The position numbers and the translations under genes were made by a program. From Cyclobacterium plantarum (GTDB taxonomy: Bacteria > Bacteroidota > Bacteroidia > Cytophagales > Cyclobacteriaceae): 64,000 bases of DNA. The notes beneath the pieces were generated by a model. That model did not search any database, was not told where the DNA came from, and was given only the letters and a program-made list of their open reading frames with translations. Below are positions 7,455 to 60,369 of the stretch, piece after piece; within the stretch, counting starts at the first letter, position 1, and each line of letters starts with the position of its first letter. The stretch covers positions 675,347 through 739,346 of the forward strand of contig NZ_JAANYN010000002.1 in NCBI RefSeq assembly GCF_011290685.1. Reading direction: 5' to 3'.

Positions 7455-10400
7455 TTACAATGCAACCTGAAGACCCAATAAATAGGTGGTTGGCTTAGGA
7501 TAACTGTGCCAATTCATGCCCTGAGAAAACACATTGTTTCCGTCGCCTCCCCTGATCGGGGTCACTTCAGGGTCACCAATGATTTCATCTCCTGTGATCA
7601 GGAAGAAATTTTGGGTCGAAGTATACACCCTTAGCCTACTCAAACGAAGTCTATTTGCCACTTCAACGGGAAAGGTGTACCCTAATAGCAGGTTTCTACC
7701 ACGTAAAAATGACGCATCTTTAACCCATCTGGAATCCACATTGGTTACATAACCTGCACGGGTGTCTCTGATTTCCGCCACCATGGAATTCTGGTTGTCC
7801 GGGGTCCAGGCATCCAGCACCGTGCGGTAGCTATTGGCAAGAGCTTGCCGGTCCTCGCTTGGGTGCAGGTTCATATCCAAAAGGTCGTTGCCATACATGT
7901 ATTGCAGATCAATGGCAAGATCCCAGTTTCTAAACCTGATATTATTGGTCAATGCACCCCAGAATTTTGGGTTTCCATTTCCGATAATCATCCTGTCCGA
8001 ATCATTGATGGCCTTATCTCCATTTACATCCAGGTACTTAATGTCTCCCGGAAGAATAGTCAATCCATTTCTATAACTTACGTACTCTGCGGCTTCACTT
8101 CTTTCGGATTCATTCCAGGTTCCAAGCCTTACCAAACCCCAGAAAGATCCTACGGGCTCTCCAACCCTGATAATATTGGTTTGGTTTGTGAAATTAGGCC
8201 CGCCTACACCGAAAATATCAGCAGGTGTAGCCAATGACAATACCTTATTCCGATTGGCAGAAAAATTAAAGCTACTATTCCAGGTGAAATCCGCTTTTTC
8301 AACAACCACTGCACTTAATGTGAGTTCAACCCCTTTGTTTTCCATTGAACCCACATTTCTTCTAATCGTGGCATACCCACTTGTTCTTGGAACCGGAGAA
8401 TCCAATAACATGTCTGTCGTTTTTCTGTTATAGTAATCAAATTCCACGGTAAGCCGGTTTTGAAACAGACCAAGTTCTAAACCGATATCGGCCTGAGCCG
8501 TTTTTTCCCATCTAAGATCAGGATTAGCCAGTCGGTTGATACCTGTTCCTCCGACCTGGGTCTCATTCCAAATGGCCGAATAATTGGAGCTCAATAGGGA
8601 AAGTGAAGAATAGGGCGGGATCTCTGAGTTACCGGTAAGCCCATAACTGGTCCTCAATTTCAAATTGGAAATGGTACTGTTTCCCTTAAGAAAAGCTTCT
8701 TCGGACAACCTCCAGGCCAAAGCGGCAGAAGGGAAAATGGCGTATTTGTTGTTCTCACCGAATTTGGATGCCCCATCTGCCCTACCGGTTGCTGTAAATA
8801 GATATTTATCGTCCAGAATATAATTTATCCTCGCAAAATAGGAATTTAAAGCATGCCTTGAAGCATTGGAGCCAACCCGGGGAAGTTGTGAACCGGCTCC
8901 CAAGTTATTATACGTAAAGAAGTCCGTTGCAAAATTCTGGATACTGGCACTCATGCTGGAGTAAGTGTTTTCCTGCCAGGAAATACCCAATAAACCGGTA
9001 AAAGCATGTCTTTCTCCAAATACTTTATTATAGGTAAGGTAATTTTCCAAGGACCAGAAACTGTCCCTTTCCAAACTTTTAGATGCCGTGCCTGACTGGG
9101 CAATGGCTAAGGTCCGCGTGCTGGATTGGTTATTTTCCTGGGTTAAAATATTCACACCCAAAACGGTCCGCATTTCCAATCCTTCTGCAAATTTTATATT
9201 TGAATAAGCACTTCCCAAAGTCGTTTGGGTATTCAGAATATACTTTCTGCCATATAAGCGGTGCATGGAACTCATTGTGCCTTCCGCAAAAGGATAATCC
9301 CTGTTGTTTGCAAAAGTACCATCCTCATACCTTACGGGTAAAAACGGAAAATCCTCCACAATTTGTCTAGGTACTGCATCACTGACATCTACCAGATTTT
9401 CTGATTGGTTATTATAACTGATAGTACCCCCTACTTTCAACCATGGTTTAACCTGATCATCAATGGTGAAGCGGGTGGAATACCGGGTAAGGTAGGATGT
9501 TTTTAACAAGCCCTGATCATCCCGATAACCCAAAGACAAAGAATAGGTCGTCCTTTCGTTTCCTCCTGTAAATCCCAATTGGTGGTTTTGGGACAATTTA
9601 TTTTGGGTCGTTTCATTCAACCAATTGGTATCGAACAAGGGGTTTCCCTGGCTGTCAAATACCCTGGGATCAGTTCGTCTAAGTGCAGGGTTCAGATAGG
9701 CCCATCTTCCGGCATTCCAACCCTCCGGGTCGTACTTTTCCATATTTCTCCAGGCAAGATCTTCCACAGCCATGTATTCTGCAGCATTCAATACCTCAGG
9801 TCTGTTTGGACCTATGGTATTCACGCTGAAATCTACATTATACGTCAGCGTTCCTTCACCAGATTTACCTTTTTTGGTGGTGATTAGGATTACTCCATTA
9901 GCACCTCTTGATCCATAAATGGCAGTAGAGGACGCATCTTTCAATACCTCAACAGACACGATGTCGTTAGGATTAATATAATCAATGGCATTACTGGCCT
10001 GAGCCTGGTTACTCATAGGAAGCTGGACACCATCCACCACATATAGCGGGTTATTTGAAGAGTTAATTGAACTGAATCCACGAATTCGGACATTGGTTCT
10101 ACCACCGGGCCGTCCCGAATTCACGTTTACCTGAACACCCGCAACCCTGCCAGCCAGTGCCTGATTCAGAGATGGGGAAGGACGCTCGTTTAATTCCGCT
10201 TCTCCTACTGAACCCACCGAACCTGTCAGATCTGACTTTTTCTGTGTTCCATAACCAATCACCACAACCTCTTCCAGTGCGGAAGAATCCTGATTTAACC
10301 GAATGGTCAATTCTGTCTGATTGGTTATTTTAATGGTTTGGGACTGATAACCGATGTAAGAAATCACCAAAGTGGCTTCTTCAGGCACGGTGATGGAAAA

Positions 10401-10664
10401 CTTGCCATCTAAATCTGTGACTGTTCCTCTACTCGTTCCTTGGATAGATATAGTAGCACCGGGCATAGGAAGCCCATTTTCATCCAAAACTGTTCCTGTT
10501 ATGGAAACGTCCTCTTCAAGTTGCCCGGATTTAAGTTCCTTGTTTATCACCTCTGAAGCCTGGACCGATTGGCCCCATAACAACAGGATGATTAAGGGCA
10601 AATACAGGACATAAACTGCCCTGTGCAGCAGGTTTCTTCCTGCTTTTGGTAATTTGTTTTTCAT
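7455..10664 (-). CDS. susC-like: SusC/RagA-family TonB-dependent outer-membrane transporter without STN domain (locus A)
   Basis: A TonB-dependent importer forming the lidded pore with the SusD that follows. I chose the ATG at 10664 (1069 residues, starting MKNKLPKAGRN) because it gives a signal peptide; an in-frame ATG at 10715 would add an unlikely 17-residue leader. Order: signal peptide to about residue 36, CarboxypepD_reg-like domain about 55-130, the EEVVVIGYG TonB-box-like stretch near 135, plug with NVRIRGFSS and YVVDGV, then the 22-strand barrel ending in LLGLQVAL. Unlike the other three SusC proteins here it has no STN signalling domain, and no FecR/ECF pair lies beside it. Its control must therefore differ; no regulator is in the window. 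Confidence 0.95.
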   Translation of the reverse strand: MKNKLPKAGRNLLHRAVYVLYLPLIILLLWGQSVQASEVINKELKSGQLEEDVSITGTVLDENGLPMPGATISIQGTSRGTVTDLDGKFSITVPEEATLVISYIGYQSQTIKITNQTELTIRLNQDSSALEEVVVIGYGTQKKSDLTGSVGSVGEAELNERPSPSLNQALAGRVAGVQVNVNSGRPGGRTNVRIRGFSSINSSNNPLYVVDGVQLPMSNQAQASNAIDYINPNDIVSVEVLKDASSTAIYGSRGANGVILITTKKGKSGEGTLTYNVDFSVNTIGPNRPEVLNAAEYMAVEDLAWRNMEKYDPEGWNAGRWAYLNPALRRTDPRVFDSQGNPLFDTNWLNETTQNKLSQNHQLGFTGGNERTTYSLSLGYRDDQGLLKTSYLTRYSTRFTIDDQVKPWLKVGGTISYNNQSENLVDVSDAVPRQIVEDFPFLPVRYEDGTFANNRDYPFAEGTMSSMHRLYGRKYILNTQTTLGSAYSNIKFAEGLEMRTVLGVNILTQENNQSSTRTLAIAQSGTASKSLERDSFWSLENYLTYNKVFGERHAFTGLLGISWQENTYSSMSASIQNFATDFFTYNNLGAGSQLPRVGSNASRHALNSYFARINYILDDKYLFTATGRADGASKFGENNKYAIFPSAALAWRLSEEAFLKGNSTISNLKLRTSYGLTGNSEIPPYSSLSLLSSNYSAIWNETQVGGTGINRLANPDLRWEKTAQADIGLELGLFQNRLTVEFDYYNRKTTDMLLDSPVPRTSGYATIRRNVGSMENKGVELTLSAVVVEKADFTWNSSFNFSANRNKVLSLATPADIFGVGGPNFTNQTNIIRVGEPVGSFWGLVRLGTWNESERSEAAEYVSYRNGLTILPGDIKYLDVNGDKAINDSDRMIIGNGNPKFWGALTNNIRFRNWDLAIDLQYMYGNDLLDMNLHPSEDRQALANSYRTVLDAWTPDNQNSMVAEIRDTRAGYVTNVDSRWVKDASFLRGRNLLLGYTFPVEVANRLRLSRLRVYTSTQNFFLITGDEIIGDPEVTPIRGGDGNNVFSQGMNWHSYPKPTTYLLGLQVAL

Positions 10665-11248
10665 TTTAGATTGGGTTTTTGATGATTGATTAATTGCTAC
10701 AGTGCCCATTCTCAAAGAAATTGGGAGTCACTGTTAATGGAAAAGACTTTGAAAATCTTTCACCTTGAATGGATTCAGGAACTGTTCGCTATTTTCATCT
10801 GGATAAATTGGATTATGGTTAATAAATAAAAATCAAAACATCCCCGATCCGGTTGAAAACCTGCCCAGGGCAAAATTAAACCACTCTTTAACCGCCAAAC
10901 CTTTAAGGTTTCATTTTAATCTTCCTGGTGTTAAGACCTTTCTTCTGAAACCCAAAAAGATTTTTACTAATGATCAATTGATTAACAGAATATACTATGG
11001 ATTCATTGTCCCTGATCAAACTTTTAGCAATACTACTGCTATCGGAGTTTTAGGGTGGAACAGGTTGCTGGTTGTCAGTTGGTCAGGAGGTTAAATAATT
11101 AAAATTGCAAGTAAAATTCAAACCTGTATATGCGCATTTTACAAACTTTATATTTCACAACAATTTTGATATGTAAAATATAAGTTTTTAAAAATAAAAA
11201 ATAACAAAACAAATTCCAATACTAAACGGCTTAAATATTTTTTTTAAT
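10665..11248. other. Leader and intergenic DNA upstream of locus A susC
   Basis: AT-rich DNA between the locus A susC start and the small ORF at 11249. Its most visible structure is an imperfect hairpin at about 10697-10734 (ACAGTG with CACTGT, plus CCCA/TGGG), which is not followed by a T-run on either strand. It therefore does not match the terminator-like hairpins in front of the other three susC genes. The locus A promoter should lie here; no exact TTTG/TAnnTTTG pair could be fixed with confidence. Confidence 0.5.
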
Positions 11249-23317: not shown

Positions 23318-23356
23318 AATTTTAGGTGTTTTATTGAATTGATTTCTTTAAAGCAG

Positions 23357-23410
23357 GCAGGGTAAAATGTTTCATTTGGCGATGGGAATTTTATCCTGCT
23401 TTTTGTTTTT
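23357..23410 (+). terminator. Antisense-strand terminator-like hairpin in the fecR-susC gap (locus B)
   Basis: On the plus strand GCAGGGTAAAA (23357-23367) pairs with TTTTATCCTGC (23389-23399), one G-T pair included, and is followed directly by TTTTTTGTTTTT. The genes on both sides run on the minus strand, where the structure has A-runs in front and no T-run behind. It therefore looks like a terminator for RNA running antisense to the susC leader, not for the operon itself. The 21-nt loop makes it weaker than the counterparts in loci C and D. Confidence 0.5.
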
Positions 23411-23423
23411 ATTTCATAGGCAA

Positions 23424-42685: not shown

Positions 42686-42699
42686 ATCTTTACATGGTT

Positions 42700-42813
42700 T
42701 ATTTTGGCTATTGTGTAAATGGTTGAATAAACGGGCATCGGGTACTGATTGGCGTCAAATGCCCCGATGTTTTACTACTTCCGAAGGTGTTACAGCACCT
42801 TCGGCTTTTTTTT
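42700..42813 (+). ncRNA. Candidate cis-antisense small RNA in the fecR-susC gap (locus C)
   Basis: The plus strand, opposite to the flanking genes, holds two consecutive stem-loops: CATCGGG (42736-42742) with CCCGATG (42763-42769), also able to pair as GGGCAT/ATGCCC, and then a strong terminator (42781-42813). A -7-like element, TATTTTG, lies near 42700, one base short of the TAnnTTTG consensus. An RNA from there would be about 100 nt and complementary to the susC leader. The model is DonS-type antisense RNA of Bacteroides fragilis. Start and existence are inferred; the hairpins are directly visible. Confidence 0.4.
42781..42813 (+). terminator. Strong terminator on the strand opposite to susC (locus C)
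   Basis: CCGAAGGTG (42781-42789) pairs perfectly with CACCTTCGG (42796-42804) over a six-base loop, and is followed by C and eight Ts (42806-42813). On the gene strand the A-run comes first and no T-run follows, so it is oriented to stop plus-strand (antisense) RNA running from the susC start towards fecR. Confidence 0.8.
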
Positions 42814-42859
42814 ATGTTAATCTGAATCAGTTTTCCATAGGCAGTGCGGTTTTGAGTTT

Positions 42860-53069: not shown

Positions 53070-54725
53070 CTAGAAATACCCTGGATTTTGAGTCAGTTCA
53101 GCCTCAGTATTCGTTTCAATTTCTCTAAAAGGAATTGGCCATAGATTTTGATGATCCAGAATATTATCACCGGTCATGCTATTATAGGTTTTGACTCTAT
53201 CCACTAACAGATTCAATCTCATTAGCGTAAGCAACCTCAATTCTTCCCAGGCCAATTCCCTGGCCCGTTCGTCAAGAATGTAATCAATTGTCACCTCTGC
53301 AGGGGAAATGGGGTTGGCACTAGCCCGCTCCCTTACTGTATTGATATCAGCAGCCGCGCTTACCCCATCTCCCTTTCCCAGATAGGCTTCTGCCCGCAAA
53401 AGATAGGTTTCCGATAACCGAAATATATAATTATCTGTCATCATTCCATTTGATTGGTTATTTAGTAGCCCTGTTTCCGCGTCCAAGACAAATTCATCTG
53501 GGAAATTATTGATCGGAGCCACCTTGGCAAAAATAAGGTTCCACCATCTGTCGTAGGTATTGGGGAAATTGGCAATGGCTCCGCTTTCGATAATGTATTG
53601 CCCAAAATATTCGGAATTTGGATTGGTGGCCTTGATATCACGGATAATGTTATGGGATGAATTACGGATATCATTGTCAAAATCACTTTCCCAAACGGTT
53701 TGTCGCATATATTCTGTTGGTGCAAACCATCCGATTCCCCGTCCTCCGTACTGATCCATAGGTCCTGAAAAAAGACTTACTTCATTGGGATCAGTTAACT
53801 GCCAGTAAAGTGGAATAAGAAACCTTGGCCAGGTAGGGCTACTTCCTCCTCCCTCCACCAGGTATTCAAACTGGCTAACCCAGATACCTTCCTGGTTTCC
53901 ACTGGATCTGTTTTGATTATCTCTTCTGAACAAATCCCAATATACGTCTCCTGGCTCGTCCATCCGTGATCCAAACCTTTCGGTCATCAGGGCAAAATTG
54001 GGGTTATCAATCACCCGGGAAGCTGCAGCTATGGCCTCATCCCAATTTTCCAAAATAATATATACTTCACTGAGCAAATGGTCTGCTACCGCATTGGAAA
54101 TCCGGCCTTCCTCTGGGACTGCCGTTATTCCCGGAAGATTCTCAGCGGCAAATGTTAAATCAGCGATGCATTGCTGTAAAACTTCATCTCGGGTGGCCCT
54201 GGTAAAATCTCTTTTTGGTTCTTGCGTTTCTTCCAAAATGATCGGTACACCACCATACACAATACCTAAAACACGGTAAGCAAAGGCCCTGAAGAACATT
54301 GCTTCAGCTTTGTAGGCATTTCGTTGCTGAGCAGAGTTAAAAACCACATTTTCATCCTCTATCCTACCAATGATTACATTGGCATTAAATACAATTTCAT
54401 AAAGGGAACTCCATAAGCCTTGTACTTGCGGAGTAACCGGGTTCAACTTATCACTGTAAGCATTAAGATCATGGGAGATATCGATCGCATCGTAAGCCAT
54501 GTCGGTGGGATAAAACAAAGACCTGGAGTCACCATTATTTACCTGATAGAGTGAATTATGTACATTTTCATATAATCGGGCAATGGCTGAATTAAAATCA
54601 CCCGGAGTGGAAAATGAATTCTCTGGGGAATAAAAATCCAATGGTTTCTCTTCCAACCACTCATTGCTACACGATGAGAAAATAAAGGTCAGGGCAGTTA
54701 ATAGGATTATATAATTAATTTTCAT
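53070..54725 (-). CDS. susD-like: SusD/RagB-family lipoprotein (locus D)
   Basis: A lipoprotein of 551 residues with lipobox IFSSC (Cys19), then SNEWLEEKPLDFYSPENSF. The TPR-like part includes AYKAEAMFFRAFAYRVLGIV and YGGVPIILEETQEPKRDF. The C-terminal domain has FRLSETYLLRAEAYLGKGDG, RARELAWEELRLLTLMRLN and ends in EAELTQNPGYF. It lies 11 bp after susC and is its certain partner. The C-terminal RagB end matches the other SusD proteins of the window, while the ligand-binding middle differs. The substrate is presumably the fucose- or rhamnose-containing sulfated glycan handled by GH95, GH78 and the sulfatase (inference). Confidence 0.95.
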   Translation of the reverse strand: MKINYIILLTALTFIFSSCSNEWLEEKPLDFYSPENSFSTPGDFNSAIARLYENVHNSLYQVNNGDSRSLFYPTDMAYDAIDISHDLNAYSDKLNPVTPQVQGLWSSLYEIVFNANVIIGRIEDENVVFNSAQQRNAYKAEAMFFRAFAYRVLGIVYGGVPIILEETQEPKRDFTRATRDEVLQQCIADLTFAAENLPGITAVPEEGRISNAVADHLLSEVYIILENWDEAIAAASRVIDNPNFALMTERFGSRMDEPGDVYWDLFRRDNQNRSSGNQEGIWVSQFEYLVEGGGSSPTWPRFLIPLYWQLTDPNEVSLFSGPMDQYGGRGIGWFAPTEYMRQTVWESDFDNDIRNSSHNIIRDIKATNPNSEYFGQYIIESGAIANFPNTYDRWWNLIFAKVAPINNFPDEFVLDAETGLLNNQSNGMMTDNYIFRLSETYLLRAEAYLGKGDGVSAAADINTVRERASANPISPAEVTIDYILDERARELAWEELRLLTLMRLNLLVDRVKTYNSMTGDNILDHQNLWPIPFREIETNTEAELTQNPGYF

Positions 54726-54736
54726 AGCCGTTAAAA

Positions 54737-57700
54737 TTAAAATTGAACATTTAAACCCAGCGTAAACGCTTTCATCACTGGCAATCCTGCCACCAGTCCA
54801 ATCCCGGTTTCAGGATCCCAACCTTCCCATTTGGTTAAGGTTACCAGATTCTTTGCGCTTAAGTTTACCTTCAAATTGCTGATTTTCCATTTTTCCAGGA
54901 TTCCTGGATCAAAATTATACGCCAATGAAATATCCTGAAGCCTGACAAAATTTCTTTGATCATAGGGCCTGCCAACAAAACTGGAGGGAAGATCCAACCT
55001 TCTATATTTGGCATTAGGATTCTCCGGCATCCAGTAATCAAAGGGCATGGCATTGGAATACGTAAGCTGATCCCGCTTAAACAATGCTCCGGAAGCATAC
55101 GGACTTCCATCCCCATAATAAAAATCACTACCTCCCTGAATGGAGTTTACAAATACATACAAGGACAAATTTTTATAGCGCAAAGTATTGGCAAAACCCA
55201 ACCTATAGGAGGGATCCCTGTATCCTAAAATTTTCCGATCATTAGGTGATATTGAACCATCTTCATCCACATCGTTCAGGCGATAGGTACCTGGGAAAAA
55301 CCCCTGTGGAACTTCATCATCCAACTGCCACATTCCGATTACCTCATAATCGAATACAACATTTTGAGGCTCCCCAATAAAAAGCTGGTTGGTAACAATA
55401 TCATCTTCCATTCCATCATTGTTATTGTCTACTCCCAAAATAGACTTAATTTGGTTTCTGTTTCTGGAGAAATTTAGGGTGGATTGCCAGGAAAAATCTC
55501 CCATTCTAACCAATTCCCCAGTTAGAGAAAATTCGATACCATGATTAAAAACTTCTCCGATATTTGTGGCAATATTTGAAAAACCAGTTGTTTGAGGAAT
55601 CTGGATATTGTAAAGAATATCTTCGGTGTTATTGCTGTAATATTCTATATTTCCAAACAATCTGGAGTTCAACATATCAAAATCTACTCCTATATTAAGT
55701 CCGGTAGTAGTCTCCCAGGCCAAATTTGGATTTGCCATGGTGGTAATCCACTGTCCAATAGTTGCCGATCCCCCGTCGCCAAACACCCTGCTGGGGGCAG
55801 CGTTCATTCTTGCCTGGGTTTCATACCTTCCTACACCCCTCCTGGCAGTCTGCCCGTAAGAGGCCCTGACTTTGAGAAATTCTATCAGGCTGTTATCGAA
55901 AAAACCTTCTTCACTCACTACCCAACCAAATGCAACAGAAGGAAAGATCCCAAATTTATTATTGGCGCCAAAACCTGAAAAACCATCTCTTCTGACAGTT
56001 GCTGTGAAAAGGTATCGGTCCTTGTATCCATACAAAATTCTGCCCATATTATATAAACTCGACTCTTCCTCTCCGCCAGAGGTAATGATATTAAGAGAAG
56101 GGTCTCCGGCCTGTAATCTGTAAAAACCCAAGGTCGGATTGGAGAAATTCTGAGCAGACGCATTAGTAAAACTCGTCTGTATTTTTTCTACTCCATATAA
56201 AAATGTCAAGCTTAACCTATGGTCATCTGCAAAACGTTTCTCATAACTCAAGATATTATCGAGTATATAACTGTAATAATAATTGGAATTTTTGAATCCA
56301 GAACCAGTGAAGTTAGCACCCCAAGGGTTGAATTGATTATTAGTGTTATTCCTATAATTATGACCATAGTTTAAACGGTAATTGAAGCCTGGGAGGAATG
56401 GGAGTTTTACATCAAAATGAAAATTACCGAATAAATTCAACCTTTTATCACTATCATCTATTTGAGTCTGTAGGAACGGATTCAACCCGAGTCCTTCAGG
56501 CTGTAATTCATAATTTCCCTCACTATCGTATATGGGAGCGAATGGCTGTAAATGAAAAACGGTGCCGACCCCTGGAGAAACTCCGGAGTAATCACTAGAG
56601 GTCAAGAACGTTTCCATACCAAAGGTTAACCAATCCGTGATTTTGGTATCAAAATTAGCGGTGATATTGATCCTATTATACAGGTCATTTTTAATAAAAC
56701 CTTTCTGATCCGTTATTCCTGCAGCAATAAAATAACCTGAATTCGCTGTTCGTCCCCGTATGCTTAGATCATGGGTGTGAATATGTCCGTCTCCGGTAAA
56801 TAATCCCCACCAATCGTTATCCCTGTCATTCTGATATCCTTCCGAAATCTGTTGGGTCTTCAAATAAGGAGTCACAACAAAATCAGGATTGGGTTGCAGG
56901 TAATCAGGTGCCATTCTACTTTGCTCCCAGAAAACATCTGGTAAGAAGGCTTTGTTTTCAGCCGTATTTCTGGGTCTGATATTTTTAGTAGGAACCTGAA
57001 GGGTATATTGGCCGGAGTAGTTGATGATGGGTTTTCCTATTTCAACACCTTTTTTTGAGGTTAGGAGGATCACTCCATTTGCTGCTTGAGAACCATAGAT
57101 AGCTGCGGCACTTCCATCTTTCAGCACTTCTACTGACTGGATTTGAGCGGGGTTGATATCGATAATATTACCCCTGTAGATAATGCCGTCGAGCACTATT
57201 AATGGGGCATTGTCTCCCGCACTGCTTGAAAGCGTATTTTGCCCCCTCACTTCAATCCGTGGATCTTGCCCGGATTGGGTGATGGCACCAACATTTAGCC
57301 CTGGGATCCTTCCTTGTAGGGATTGAAGCAAACTGACATTTGGTAGTTCATTTTGTTGTTCAATATCCACACTGGAGATGGCTCCTGTCAGGTCTCTTTT
57401 CCTTACTGCTCCATAGCCTACCACCACTACTTCTTCCAGGGACGATTGATCCTCCAGAAGCGTGATGGAAAAATCCGTTTGATTACCCACCATAATGCGC
57501 TGTGACTGGTACCCGATAAAAGAAATCAACAATACCGCCCCTTCTTCTGCCTCCAGGCTGAATTTGCCATCGATGTCCGTGGCCGTTCCCGTTGTGGTGC
57601 CTTCTACCAATACCGTAGCCCCGGGAATTGGTGCGCCGTTTACATCGGTGACCGTTCCGGTGACTGGTACCCAGTCCCAATCAACCATGGTCTGGACCTC

Positions 57701-58069
57701 AGGTTGCACGTTGGAAACCACATCAATGGTGTGGTTCATCTGCCGAAAACTCAGGCTTAACTGTTGACCGGCATCTTTTAGCCGGTCTTCAACCGTTCCA
57801 GTATCGTTCTTAAATTGGATGATTTGGGATTTATCCAATCCCTGATTCTCGTAGGCAAACTTAAAAGGGGTGTTTCTTTCTACTTCTTTAAAAAATTGCC
57901 GGACACTAAGTGCCTGCGCCGATAAATTGATATTTACCTCTTCTATGCGTTTGTATTGGCCCTTTGCTTGCATGATGCTGGCAAAATTGACCAGCAGCAT
58001 TTGTAAAATTAAGCCATATAGAAAGCCTTTGGACAACATGAGGATTGCCGTTAGTAATTTATTTTTCAT
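54737..58069 (-). CDS. susC-like: SusC/RagA-family TonB-dependent transporter with STN domain (locus D)
   Basis: An importer of 1110 residues. Signal peptide to about 36, STN domain about 42-117 (SVRQFFKEVERNTPFKFAYE), CarboxypepD_reg-like domain about 136-210, EEVVVVGYGAVRKRDLTG at about 213, plug (RIEVRGQNTLSSSAGDNAPL, SVEVLKDGSAAAIYGSQAAN), then the barrel ending FTLGLNVQF. The STN domain pairs it with the FecR encoded 148 bp upstream. The CarboxypepD_reg coding segment (57430-57630) is nearly shared with the locus C gene. The start codon is preceded on its own strand by an A-rich CAAAATT, typical of Bacteroidota leaders. Confidence 0.95.
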   Translation of the reverse strand: MKNKLLTAILMLSKGFLYGLILQMLLVNFASIMQAKGQYKRIEEVNINLSAQALSVRQFFKEVERNTPFKFAYENQGLDKSQIIQFKNDTGTVEDRLKDAGQQLSLSFRQMNHTIDVVSNVQPEVQTMVDWDWVPVTGTVTDVNGAPIPGATVLVEGTTTGTATDIDGKFSLEAEEGAVLLISFIGYQSQRIMVGNQTDFSITLLEDQSSLEEVVVVGYGAVRKRDLTGAISSVDIEQQNELPNVSLLQSLQGRIPGLNVGAITQSGQDPRIEVRGQNTLSSSAGDNAPLIVLDGIIYRGNIIDINPAQIQSVEVLKDGSAAAIYGSQAANGVILLTSKKGVEIGKPIINYSGQYTLQVPTKNIRPRNTAENKAFLPDVFWEQSRMAPDYLQPNPDFVVTPYLKTQQISEGYQNDRDNDWWGLFTGDGHIHTHDLSIRGRTANSGYFIAAGITDQKGFIKNDLYNRINITANFDTKITDWLTFGMETFLTSSDYSGVSPGVGTVFHLQPFAPIYDSEGNYELQPEGLGLNPFLQTQIDDSDKRLNLFGNFHFDVKLPFLPGFNYRLNYGHNYRNNTNNQFNPWGANFTGSGFKNSNYYYSYILDNILSYEKRFADDHRLSLTFLYGVEKIQTSFTNASAQNFSNPTLGFYRLQAGDPSLNIITSGGEEESSLYNMGRILYGYKDRYLFTATVRRDGFSGFGANNKFGIFPSVAFGWVVSEEGFFDNSLIEFLKVRASYGQTARRGVGRYETQARMNAAPSRVFGDGGSATIGQWITTMANPNLAWETTTGLNIGVDFDMLNSRLFGNIEYYSNNTEDILYNIQIPQTTGFSNIATNIGEVFNHGIEFSLTGELVRMGDFSWQSTLNFSRNRNQIKSILGVDNNNDGMEDDIVTNQLFIGEPQNVVFDYEVIGMWQLDDEVPQGFFPGTYRLNDVDEDGSISPNDRKILGYRDPSYRLGFANTLRYKNLSLYVFVNSIQGGSDFYYGDGSPYASGALFKRDQLTYSNAMPFDYWMPENPNAKYRRLDLPSSFVGRPYDQRNFVRLQDISLAYNFDPGILEKWKISNLKVNLSAKNLVTLTKWEGWDPETGIGLVAGLPVMKAFTLGLNVQF

Positions 58070-58191
58070 AATTTTGAGTGTTTATTGGAAATTAATTTCA
58101 ATAGGCCTGGTCTATTGATGGCCCCATTCCCCAATGTGCACCATCTTTAGACCAGCTCAGGGCCGGTTGGTTTTGCCAACCGGCTTTTTTT
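58069..58191 (+). ncRNA. Candidate cis-antisense small RNA in the fecR-susC gap (locus D)
   Basis: On the plus strand, opposite to the genes, an exact Bacteroidota -7 element TAATTTTG (TAnnTTTG, 58069-58076) lies 21 bases after a -33-like ATTG (58044-58047). It is followed by a long hairpin (CTGGTCTA, two mismatches, GATGG at 58107-58121; CCATC and TAGACCAG at 58141-58155) and a strong terminator (58162-58191). A transcript starting near 58083 would be about 110 nt and complementary to the whole susC leader. One caution is that the -7 match overlaps the complement of the susC start codon and its A-rich leader, so part of it is expected by chance. The model is DonS-type RNA of Bacteroides fragilis. 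Confidence 0.45.
58162..58191 (+). terminator. Strong terminator on the strand opposite to susC (locus D)
   Basis: GCCGGTTGG (58162-58170) pairs perfectly with CCAACCGGC (58176-58184) over a TTTTG loop and is followed by seven Ts (58185-58191). The T-run is on the plus strand only. On the gene strand the A-run precedes the stem. It would stop antisense RNA 26 bp before the end of fecR. Confidence 0.85.
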
Positions 58192-58217
58192 ATGGAGCAT
58201 GTATGTATACCATCATT

Positions 58218-59252
58218 CTAAAATTTTAAGTAAACTACTTTTTCTTTTATACTGAATTGAAAGTGCTGTATATAGGCAATACTGCCCAATACCTCTTCGA
58301 GAGTCTGCTCCTTGTACTCTCCCGAAAACTGCCAGGATGCAGGTGTTTCATTTTTTAACATAAACTTTACCCCATACCAGTTTTCCAGAGTATGCAGCAC
58401 CTCTTTTAAATTAGCACTTTCAAATCGAATCCAGCCCTCTTTCCAGGCCAGAACCAGATTTGGATCAAAACTTGCTACTTTTTGCCGTCCGGATGCGACC
58501 TCATGGTGCAGGGATTGACCCGGTTTCAACACTACGGGCTCAGTGGATGCCTTTTTTGACACCTTCACGCTTCCGGATACCAACGAAATATCGATAGTGG
58601 TCTGAAGCTGATTCCGAACATTAAAAGTTGTTCCCAAAACCGTAGTCAGCAATCCATTTGTTTCTACATAAAAGGGCCTCAAGCTATCTTTCTCCACTTC
58701 AAAATAGGCCTCCCCAATCAGTCGAACCCTCCTTTCTGAGGAGTCAAAAGGTTGGGGGAAATATAAACTGCTATTGGCATTAAGCCATATCCGGCTACCG
58801 TCTCCCAATGTCAGCTGCAGTTTTTCTCCGGGCATGGTTGTTTTTTCAATCCATACAGGATCAATTTCTACCAGATTAATTTCTGTTGGTTGTTTGGAAA
58901 GCCACCAACCCAACCCAAAACTAAGCAACAAAATGGCTGCAATCCGCTGAAATTGCCCGGCGCCTTTCCAGATGGGGAATCCCAGCCGGACTGAGCTATT
59001 TTTTTTAATCTTCTTCGGTCTCACCTTCTTATCATGCAATAGCTGCTGTAGGATTTCCTCACGGACTCCTTCAGCGGCCTTGGGTTCCGGGTAGCGGACG
59101 CGAAGCAGAATTTCCCTGGCTTTCTTTAATTCTCCTTTCTGCTCTGGATTGGCAGCCATCCACCTGGACCAATAAGCATCCAATTGCTCATTGGGTTGCT
59201 TCACCCAGGCTACAAATTCCTGGTTGGCTAAAAAATCCTCTTTGGTTTTCAT
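58218..59252 (-). CDS. fecR-like: FecR-family anti-sigma factor (locus D)
   Basis: An inner-membrane anti-sigma factor of 344 residues. Cytoplasmic N-terminal part (1-105, with EFVAWVKQPNEQLDAYWSRW), one membrane segment (FQRIAAILLLSFGLGWWLS, about 100-118), FecR domain (TTMPGEKLQLTLGDGSRIWL, RLIGEAYFEVEKDSLRPFYV, TVLGTTFNVRNQ) and a C-terminal DUF4974/STN-like domain (TLENWYGVKFMLKNE to the end). It acts with the SusC STN domain and the sigma factor at 59761-60369. About 500 bp, including a repeat element, separate it from the sigma gene. Confidence 0.93.
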   Translation of the reverse strand: MKTKEDFLANQEFVAWVKQPNEQLDAYWSRWMAANPEQKGELKKAREILLRVRYPEPKAAEGVREEILQQLLHDKKVRPKKIKKNSSVRLGFPIWKGAGQFQRIAAILLLSFGLGWWLSKQPTEINLVEIDPVWIEKTTMPGEKLQLTLGDGSRIWLNANSSLYFPQPFDSSERRVRLIGEAYFEVEKDSLRPFYVETNGLLTTVLGTTFNVRNQLQTTIDISLVSGSVKVSKKASTEPVVLKPGQSLHHEVASGRQKVASFDPNLVLAWKEGWIRFESANLKEVLHTLENWYGVKFMLKNETPASWQFSGEYKEQTLEEVLGSIAYIQHFQFSIKEKVVYLKF

Positions 59253-59760: not shown

Positions 59761-60369
59761 TTACCGGAGGGTTTTCCGCAAAAAACCAAGTGCTTTATAC
59801 ATCAGGTTACGGGTGGTATGATCACTGTCCATTCCCATTAATTCCCGGATCTCAGCATAGGACAGGCCTTCATAAAAAAAATAATAGATGATCTCTTTTT
59901 TTCTGGGACTCAACCTGGAAATGGCCCGGTTCAGGGCGGTGACTTTTTCCAGATCCAACTGCTGATCGATCAAATGCTGCTCGGGAGACAAAACAAAATC
60001 AAAACCATGCTCACCCGGCAGGGGCTGTCTTCTGCCTTCCCAGCGACTTTGTTGCTGATATAGCTTCCTCTTCAGGCATTTCAGCAAATAAAACTTGATA
60101 TGATCGGTAGAGCTCACTTTTTCCCGAAGCTTCTTGAGCTCAAAAAACACTTCCTGAATGCCATCTTTGGTTAGGGATTCGTCCAAACTGATTCGCATGC
60201 CATAAGCATACAAATGGTCAAAATACTGCTCATAGATCTGTATAAATGCCGCATCACTACCCTTACGGAATTGATCCCATAATACTGAATCCGGGGTTAC
60301 TTTATTTGATGAAAATCCATTTTCAATAACAATGGCTTCCACATTGAGTTTGGAATGAATTGCGGTCAT
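59761..60369 (-). CDS. ECF RNA polymerase sigma factor (locus D)
   Basis: A sigma-70 ECF protein of 202 residues. Region 2 is in DAAFIQIYEQYFDHLYAYGM and TKDGIQEVFFELKKLREKV (about 33-82). Region 4 is in AISRLSPRKKEIIYYFFYEG and LSYAEIRELMGMDSDHTTRN (about 150-190). It ends right after region 4 (GFLRKTLR), without the hydrophobic tail of the other two sigma factors. It is the presumed activator of locus D, controlled by the FecR at 58218-59252. A candidate housekeeping promoter lies 75-107 bp upstream. Confidence 0.93.
   Translation of the reverse strand: MTAIHSKLNVEAIVIENGFSSNKVTPDSVLWDQFRKGSDAAFIQIYEQYFDHLYAYGMRISLDESLTKDGIQEVFFELKKLREKVSSTDHIKFYLLKCLKRKLYQQQSRWEGRRQPLPGEHGFDFVLSPEQHLIDQQLDLEKVTALNRAISRLSPRKKEIIYYFFYEGLSYAEIRELMGMDSDHTTRNLMYKALGFLRKTLR

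Follow-up and report, generated by a model that had tools for sequence, protein, structure and literature searches.

The question raised by this locus is what, if anything, is encoded in the 148 nt (58070-58217) that separate the genes fecR and susC. The window--that is, the whole stretch of DNA analysed, 64,000 nucleotides in length--lies within a genome of 6.17 Mb, whose nearest named relatives are members of Cyclobacterium (with C. jeungdonense, the first 230 SusC residues share 93% identity). Within the window, locus D comprises genes for an ECF sigma factor, a FecR anti-sigma factor, a SusC/RagA TonB-linked receptor and SusD (Table 1); past susD there follow genes for a GH95 enzyme, a DUF5703 protein and a sulfatase, and a rhamnosidase gene lies on the opposite side. 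A preliminary description of the window proposed that the gap harbors, on the strand opposite to both of its neighbors, a small RNA of the DonS type directed against susC. The comparative analysis reported here leads to the conclusion that the gap very probably does encode a small antisense RNA, judging from sequence patterns that are conserved among related gaps.

DonS is one of a family of cis-antisense RNAs of 78-128 nt that are divergent to susC homologues and affect them negatively (PMC7366714). For B. fragilis, antisense RNAs are cited for 15 such loci (PMC9723704), and in B. thetaiotaomicron the levels of 32 PUL-associated antisense RNAs are described as correlating with those of their own susC both negatively and positively (PMC10994844). 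The ECF sigma factor of such systems is described as being freed once the anti-sigma factor senses glycan via SusC (PMC3878776). For Flavobacterium psychrophilum, 287 antisense regions are reported (PMC9723704). No report of antisense RNAs facing susC beyond Bacteroides was found among the openly licensed papers listed by the literature searches, the F. psychrophilum antisense tables aside.

Table 1. Predicted and annotated features of locus D, with the corresponding gaps of loci B and C (window coordinates).
Feature	Position	Strand	Remarks
Candidate -7 box of antisense promoter, over susC start codon	58069..58076	plus	TAATTTTG; exact TAnnTTTG
TTG, possible -33 element (weak)	58045..58047	plus	spacer 21; within susC codons
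Predicted antisense RNA, ~112 nt	58080..58191	plus	ends predicted from sequence
Hairpin 1, AT-rich	58080..58106	plus	fold prediction
Hairpin 2, long, imperfect	58109..58153	plus	fold prediction; apical CATTCCCCAATG
Intrinsic terminator: 9-bp stem, 5-nt loop, seven Ts	58162..58191	plus	-19.1 kcal/mol (L005)
susD, locus D	53070..54725	minus	PF07980 + PF14322
susC, SusC/RagA TonB-linked receptor, locus D	54737..58069	minus	TIGR04056, 765 bits; Plug + CarbopepD_reg_2
fecR, anti-sigma factor gene, locus D	58218..59252	minus	PF04773 + PF16344
ECF sigma factor gene, locus D	59761..60369	minus	TIGR02937, 61.9 bits (cut-off 42.9)
fecR-susC gap of locus B, same layout	23318..23423	plus	antisense terminator -19.9 kcal/mol (L004); box TAATTTTA
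fecR-susC gap of locus C, same layout	42686..42859	plus	antisense terminator -15.8 kcal/mol (L053); box TATCTTTA

Anatomy of the locus D gap and a proposed mode of action

The exact TAnnTTTG element, the long imperfect hairpin and the textbook terminator that the preliminary description attributed to the plus strand are all found there (Table 1). The box lies directly over the susC start codon, the first T of TAATTTTG being the complement of the A in ATG. The terminator stem is formed by nine perfect pairs between 58162-58170 and 58176-58184, which enclose the loop TTTTG and are followed by seven Ts (58185-58191); its end is 26 nt from the fecR stop and, as had also been pointed out, reading it on the gene strand puts the A-run first. 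Locus D presents a Rho-independent terminator on the antisense strand and a candidate -7 box that is both exact and conserved in position (the possible -33 element is not conserved in the distant set of gaps introduced below). Within hairpin 1, the G-U pairs would become A-C mismatches on the minus strand. A plus-strand element opposite a susC homologue, in a gap adjoining an anti-sigma factor gene, is the siting of a DonS-type RNA, the anti-sigma gene being a characteristic neighbor of DonS.

The 3' end of the RNA was predicted at the final T of the T-run (58191) and its 5' end at a G (58080), which is the fourth base past the box and is followed by a conserved TTT[A/G]; because the sigma-A box TAnnTTTG is placed at -12 to -5 (PMC9723704), the start would be at 58081, and the neighboring G was chosen. 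With ends predicted in this way the RNA is 112 nt long, and under the same assumptions the median for the genus is 111 nt (range 40-125). It would be complementary to the susC mRNA leader, the complementarity setting in about 11 nt ahead of the start codon. A search of the whole window against Rfam at gathering scores returned no match, and an E-value search of the gap returned three sub-threshold matches to unrelated families, the best being RcsR1 with 18.1 bits (gathering score 60). A short open reading frame containing PFPNV was seen, in a rough look, in 6 of 13 listed antisense sequences, with differing ends; none is listed in three sequences of the D group--in part because a stop codon within the gap was required--and the frame is not kept in groups E and E2. 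It is unlikely that the antisense RNA encodes a peptide.

The sequence itself shows the box, hairpins and terminator, together with their conservation and strand, whereas transcription of the locus D RNA, its exact ends, its pairing with the mRNA and its repression of susC are inferred, the last being carried over by analogy from work on Bacteroides. Quite probably, a structured cis-antisense RNA of about 112 nt has a free-standing gene in the gap. The housekeeping RNA polymerase would start at a promoter with its -7 box over the susC start codon, move away from susC through the two hairpins and halt at the intrinsic terminator; by analogy with DonS, the RNA would then pair with the susC leader, beginning some 11 nt ahead of the start codon and extending upstream. 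Alternatively or additionally, antisense transcription may collide with incoming polymerase, a contribution that is suggested by the overlap of the promoter with the start codon. Either way, susC and susD would be kept low until there is enough sense transcription, which would become strong once glycan is sensed and the ECF sigma factor is freed through FecR.

Given a real RNA, its gene might instead act chiefly by polymerase collision or promoter occlusion rather than by pairing, or might even raise susC. This possibility overlaps with the explanation just given and is, on present evidence, somewhat doubtful: a polymerase bound at a box on the start codon would block the path of the sense polymerase, and positive correlations are described for some B. 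thetaiotaomicron pairs (PMC10994844), but the conserved RNA structure and loops described below suggest that the RNA itself matters.

Strand, fold and start-codon box in related gaps

Terminators were called on both strands of a genus set of 63 distinct fecR-susC pairs, drawn from 12 genomes that contain further such pairs, and of a control set made up of 54 ordinary gaps between co-directional genes within 400 kb of the same genome. Further pairs were resolved in successive searches, which yielded 30 new susC genes (29 with fecR), 55 pairs from 69 loci and 24 of 29 loci; after 38 of 168 unique pairs had been dropped for a gap below 70 nt, the pooled set consisted of 130 distinct gaps of at least 70 nt. 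The susC starts in distant relatives were set by homology, and some of them are probably wrong.

Of the 63 genus gaps, 47 have a called antisense terminator and 2 a sense terminator, as compared with 3 and 14, respectively, of the 54 control gaps. In the pooled set the counts are 98/130 antisense and 10/130 sense (with terminators on both strands in 7 of those 10), and for gaps of at least 70 nt outside the genus they are 51/70 and 8/70. When similar gaps are grouped into 87 clusters and each cluster is scored by majority, the antisense strand prevails in 59 and the sense strand in 10 (p = 1.4e-9). The own genome alone gives 12 antisense and 2 sense terminators in 18 gaps of at least 70 nt, versus 3 and 14 in the 48 control gaps of the pooled comparison (Fisher 1.2e-6 for antisense). 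No antisense terminator was called in 32 of the 130 pooled gaps; judged by eye, the T-run threshold causes the caller to miss some cases (e.g., L008 and L021).

A strand bias of this kind would also follow if the terminator were an insulator, stopping stray antisense transcription from inside susC before it reaches fecR and the sigma factor gene, with no dedicated RNA being made; likewise, the distant set conserves no -33 box. Such an insulator would, however, leave unexplained the box that is locked to the start codon, the covarying hairpins upstream of the terminator and the apical loops common to several loci, and it is accordingly considered quite unlikely.

The plus strand of the gap folds at -53.3 kcal/mol (shuffles -32.1, sd 3.7; z -5.7) and the minus strand at -49.6 kcal/mol (z -4.8); because both fold better than shuffles, the folding of a single strand cannot choose between them. 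Covariation was assessed for hand-picked structures. For the N group (11 of 15 sequences; hairpin 1 and terminator, omitting hairpin 2), 96.2% of cells are paired and 9 of 19 pairs are changed on both sides; none of 500 shuffles reaches the observed pairing or number of both-side changes, and sliding the partner columns abolishes the signal. For the D and E groups together (15 sequences; hairpins 1 and 2, omitting the terminator and part of hairpin 2, whose columns were out of register), 98.1% of cells are paired and 5 of 21 pairs are changed on both sides, a number matched by 6 of 500 shuffles; one of the five measures applied (further pair types) is not above shuffles. Hairpin 1 considered alone is paired in 98.9% of cells in the 11 N-group sequences and in 96.0% in the 15 D and E sequences, and the outer helix of hairpin 2 shows both-side change at 4 of its 5 pairs in the latter.

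The strand on which these helices are under selection can be asked by choosing helices with a score that is equal for G-U and A-C, as was done in six groups that together comprise 44 of the 63 genus gaps. On the antisense reading, these strand-neutral helices contain 46 G-U cells versus 11 A-C cells (23 versus 8 columns, p = 0.011), group N1 being nearly even (3 G-U, 2 A-C). A sense-strand leader predicts A-C over G-U, and since the opposite is seen the antisense strand is favored. The preliminary description had named stems that covary only as a sense leader as the comparative outcome that would count against it; the comparison has come out for the antisense strand instead. In each of the four groups that were folded, the sense strand gives the weaker consensus fold (in three of them clearly), but because such folds favor whichever strand is folded, the strand-neutral count is relied on instead. 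That the hairpins belong to the sense susC leader--as an attenuator or as a stability or translation element, the plus-strand signals being by-products--is thus very improbable: the minus strand does fold far above shuffles and a sense element, CCTATG, occurs in many gaps, but no sense terminator is called in 58 of 60 genus gaps, and both the G-U excess and the consensus folds point to the other strand.

The CCTATG element (mostly GCCTATGA) lies on the fecR-proximal side and is found in 33 of 60 genus gaps, with 1.7 expected after shuffling; the control gaps have it in 0 of 54 on the same strand and in 2 on the other. By eye it is seen also in Bacteroides and Echinicola gaps, at a variable distance from the fecR stop, and at locus D it is degenerate (near 58210-58218). 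It could mark an ECF promoter or an mRNA start. A search for a -35 partner found none, and GCCTATGRAA occurs at 82 sites in the genome versus 58 for a reversed control, a mild excess; CCTATG was therefore dropped as a named promoter.

In a register scan covering 155-nt stretches, TAnnTTT[G/A] occurs exactly at the start-codon register in 48 of 60 genus gaps and 35 of 70 distant gaps, and at each other position in a mean of 0.05 (genus) and 0.21 (distant) sequences, with maxima of 2 and 4. Among the distant boxes at this register 26 of 35 are exactly TAnnTTTG; among the genus boxes 14 of 48 have this form and 34 read TAnnTTTA. TTG at a spacer of 21 accompanies 16 of the 48 genus sequences (there possibly as coding sequence) and 1 of the 35 distant ones, and the -33 element forms no conserved peak in the distant set. 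On the other strand the box corresponds to AAAnnT immediately preceding ATG, which is present at 52 of 63 genus fecR-susC starts versus 1 of 195 unambiguous control starts. For susC genes without fecR the corresponding count is 2 of 19, these being the genes without fecR among 30 of 56 susC matches analysed (a set in which terminators were sought upstream of the first ATG). The idea that AAAnnTATG serves this gene class as a signal for the start of translation rather than as a promoter is highly doubtful, for although the motif reaches the start codon and control starts most often have A at many of their leader positions, its rarity at control starts and in susC genes without fecR, and the agreement of most distant boxes with the sigma-A -7 consensus (PMC9723704), stand against it.

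The antisense reading that the preliminary description put forward is thus supported by the strand bias of the terminators, the start-codon box, the covarying stems and the preponderance of G-U over A-C, and an antisense RNA gene is by far the best reading of these comparative data.

Recurrence in other loci and other orders

The preliminary description held that the same layout recurs at loci B and C and is missing from locus A. At loci B and C the layout and the antisense terminators are indeed present (Table 1); their boxes, TAATTTTA and TATCTTTA, are of the TAnnTTTA form and so are not exact copies of TAnnTTTG. At locus A (susC 7455-10715, L121), neither a box nor an antisense terminator was found, and there is no fecR within the 2.5 kb tested. 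Among the fecR-receptor pairs of the own genome, 17 of 18 with a gap of at least 70 nt have a SusC receptor as judged by TIGR04056, versus 0 of 3 with a shorter gap, which indicates that the long leader accompanies SusC-type receptors in this genome. The three pairs with short gaps (C35:90968, C35:255170 and C32:303175), non-SusC by TIGR04056, have no antisense terminator called.

Two further loci deserve mention. L030 (own genome, C22:237951-241029) contains a susC, with its start at C22:239472, that has no adjoining PF04773 match and retains the full antisense module, including box TAATTTTA, the hairpins and a terminator with a T-run; the module can therefore outlast fecR or move without it. 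L049 (G005:C35:66263-66952 and the region upstream) is a near copy of the locus D susC start in which the box and hairpin region are present; its terminator stem appears damaged by eye, its open frame is short (540 aa), and upstream of it no fecR was found. This copy may be in decay.

Outside the genus, 8 of the 10 genomes searched have at least one gap with both a box on the start codon and an antisense terminator, namely those of Bacteroides oleiciplenus, B. cellulosilyticus, Mucilaginibacter sp., Mariniphaga anaerophila, Butyricimonas sp., Seonamhaeicola algicola, Echinicola arenosa and Pleomorphovibrio marinus; going by genus names, we take these genera to represent the orders Cytophagales, Flavobacteriales, Sphingobacteriales and Bacteroidales. 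The 23 gaps of at least 60 nt in this ten-genome set (24 of 29 loci resolved) have an antisense terminator in 20 cases and a sense terminator in 4. Two of the three Butyricimonas gaps have a sense and no antisense terminator, Dysgonomonas alginatilytica has an antisense terminator in both gaps with the box off the start-codon register, and for Flavobacterium zepuense, also part of the set, 0 of 3 loci were resolved. The extension of a DonS-like arrangement past Bacteroides, which the preliminary description had offered as conjecture, is thereby strengthened, with the same anatomy appearing in Mucilaginibacter, Mariniphaga, Butyricimonas, Seonamhaeicola, Echinicola, Pleomorphovibrio and the genus itself.

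Shared loops and relation to known antisense RNAs

Certain apical loops are common to several loci. On the antisense strand, UGUURNNGCA is found in 23 of 130 gaps (sense strand, 1; control gaps, 1 of 85; shuffle expectation, 0.45), CAUUCCCCAAUG in 19 of 130 and UUGGCGAUGG in 11 of 130. Within the own genome, three of the four CATTCCCCAATG sites lie in susC leaders and the fourth in a coding frame, and CATTTGGCGATG has three sites, all in fecR-susC gaps. Such sharing, seen at the level of sequence, would be compatible with cross-talk between loci or with a common protein partner. A broader proposal is that the ECF/FecR-type susC leader represents an ancient switch of the Bacteroidia with two promoters, whose start codon doubles as an antisense -7 box, and that the loops CAUUCCCCAAUG, UUGGCGAUGG and UGUURNNGCA let antisense RNAs touch the leaders of other loci, forming a network that ranks sugars; taken as a whole this is speculative and rather unlikely.

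The predicted locus D RNA is best placed in the DonS-like class. Like DonS and the other PUL antisense RNAs of B. fragilis and B. thetaiotaomicron, it would be antisense and divergent to a susC homologue; its predicted length falls within the 78-128 nt of the DonS family (PMC7366714); and both it and DonS-type RNAs--with DonS known here second-hand, by description--combine an intrinsic terminator with a -7 box of the sigma-A type, a candidate one at locus D. The gaps of two other Bacteroides species share with locus D the anatomy of a box on the start codon. Unlike DonS-type RNAs, the locus D RNA has a host among the Cytophagales, and the boxes of this genus are mostly TAnnTTTA. With FopS and GibS of B. 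thetaiotaomicron, which are bound by RbpB, it shares small size and a terminator at its end. FopS acts at susC translation starts (PMC11697453) and is described as having a single-stranded 5' seed and several target loci, whereas the locus D RNA would be cis-encoded and, by prediction, strongly structured.

What the predicted locus D RNA would add to the DonS-like class is breadth and a promoter located at the start codon. In the literature covered, antisense RNAs against susC have been described so far for gut Bacteroides. If the same anatomy works across four orders, these RNAs would constitute a general layer of control on sugar uptake across a large group of polysaccharide degraders, marine ones included. 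The anatomy also supplies a simple rule for annotating transcriptomes--a box on the start codon and a terminator before fecR--and, with it, the role of susC-facing antisense RNAs becomes testable in culturable marine strains.
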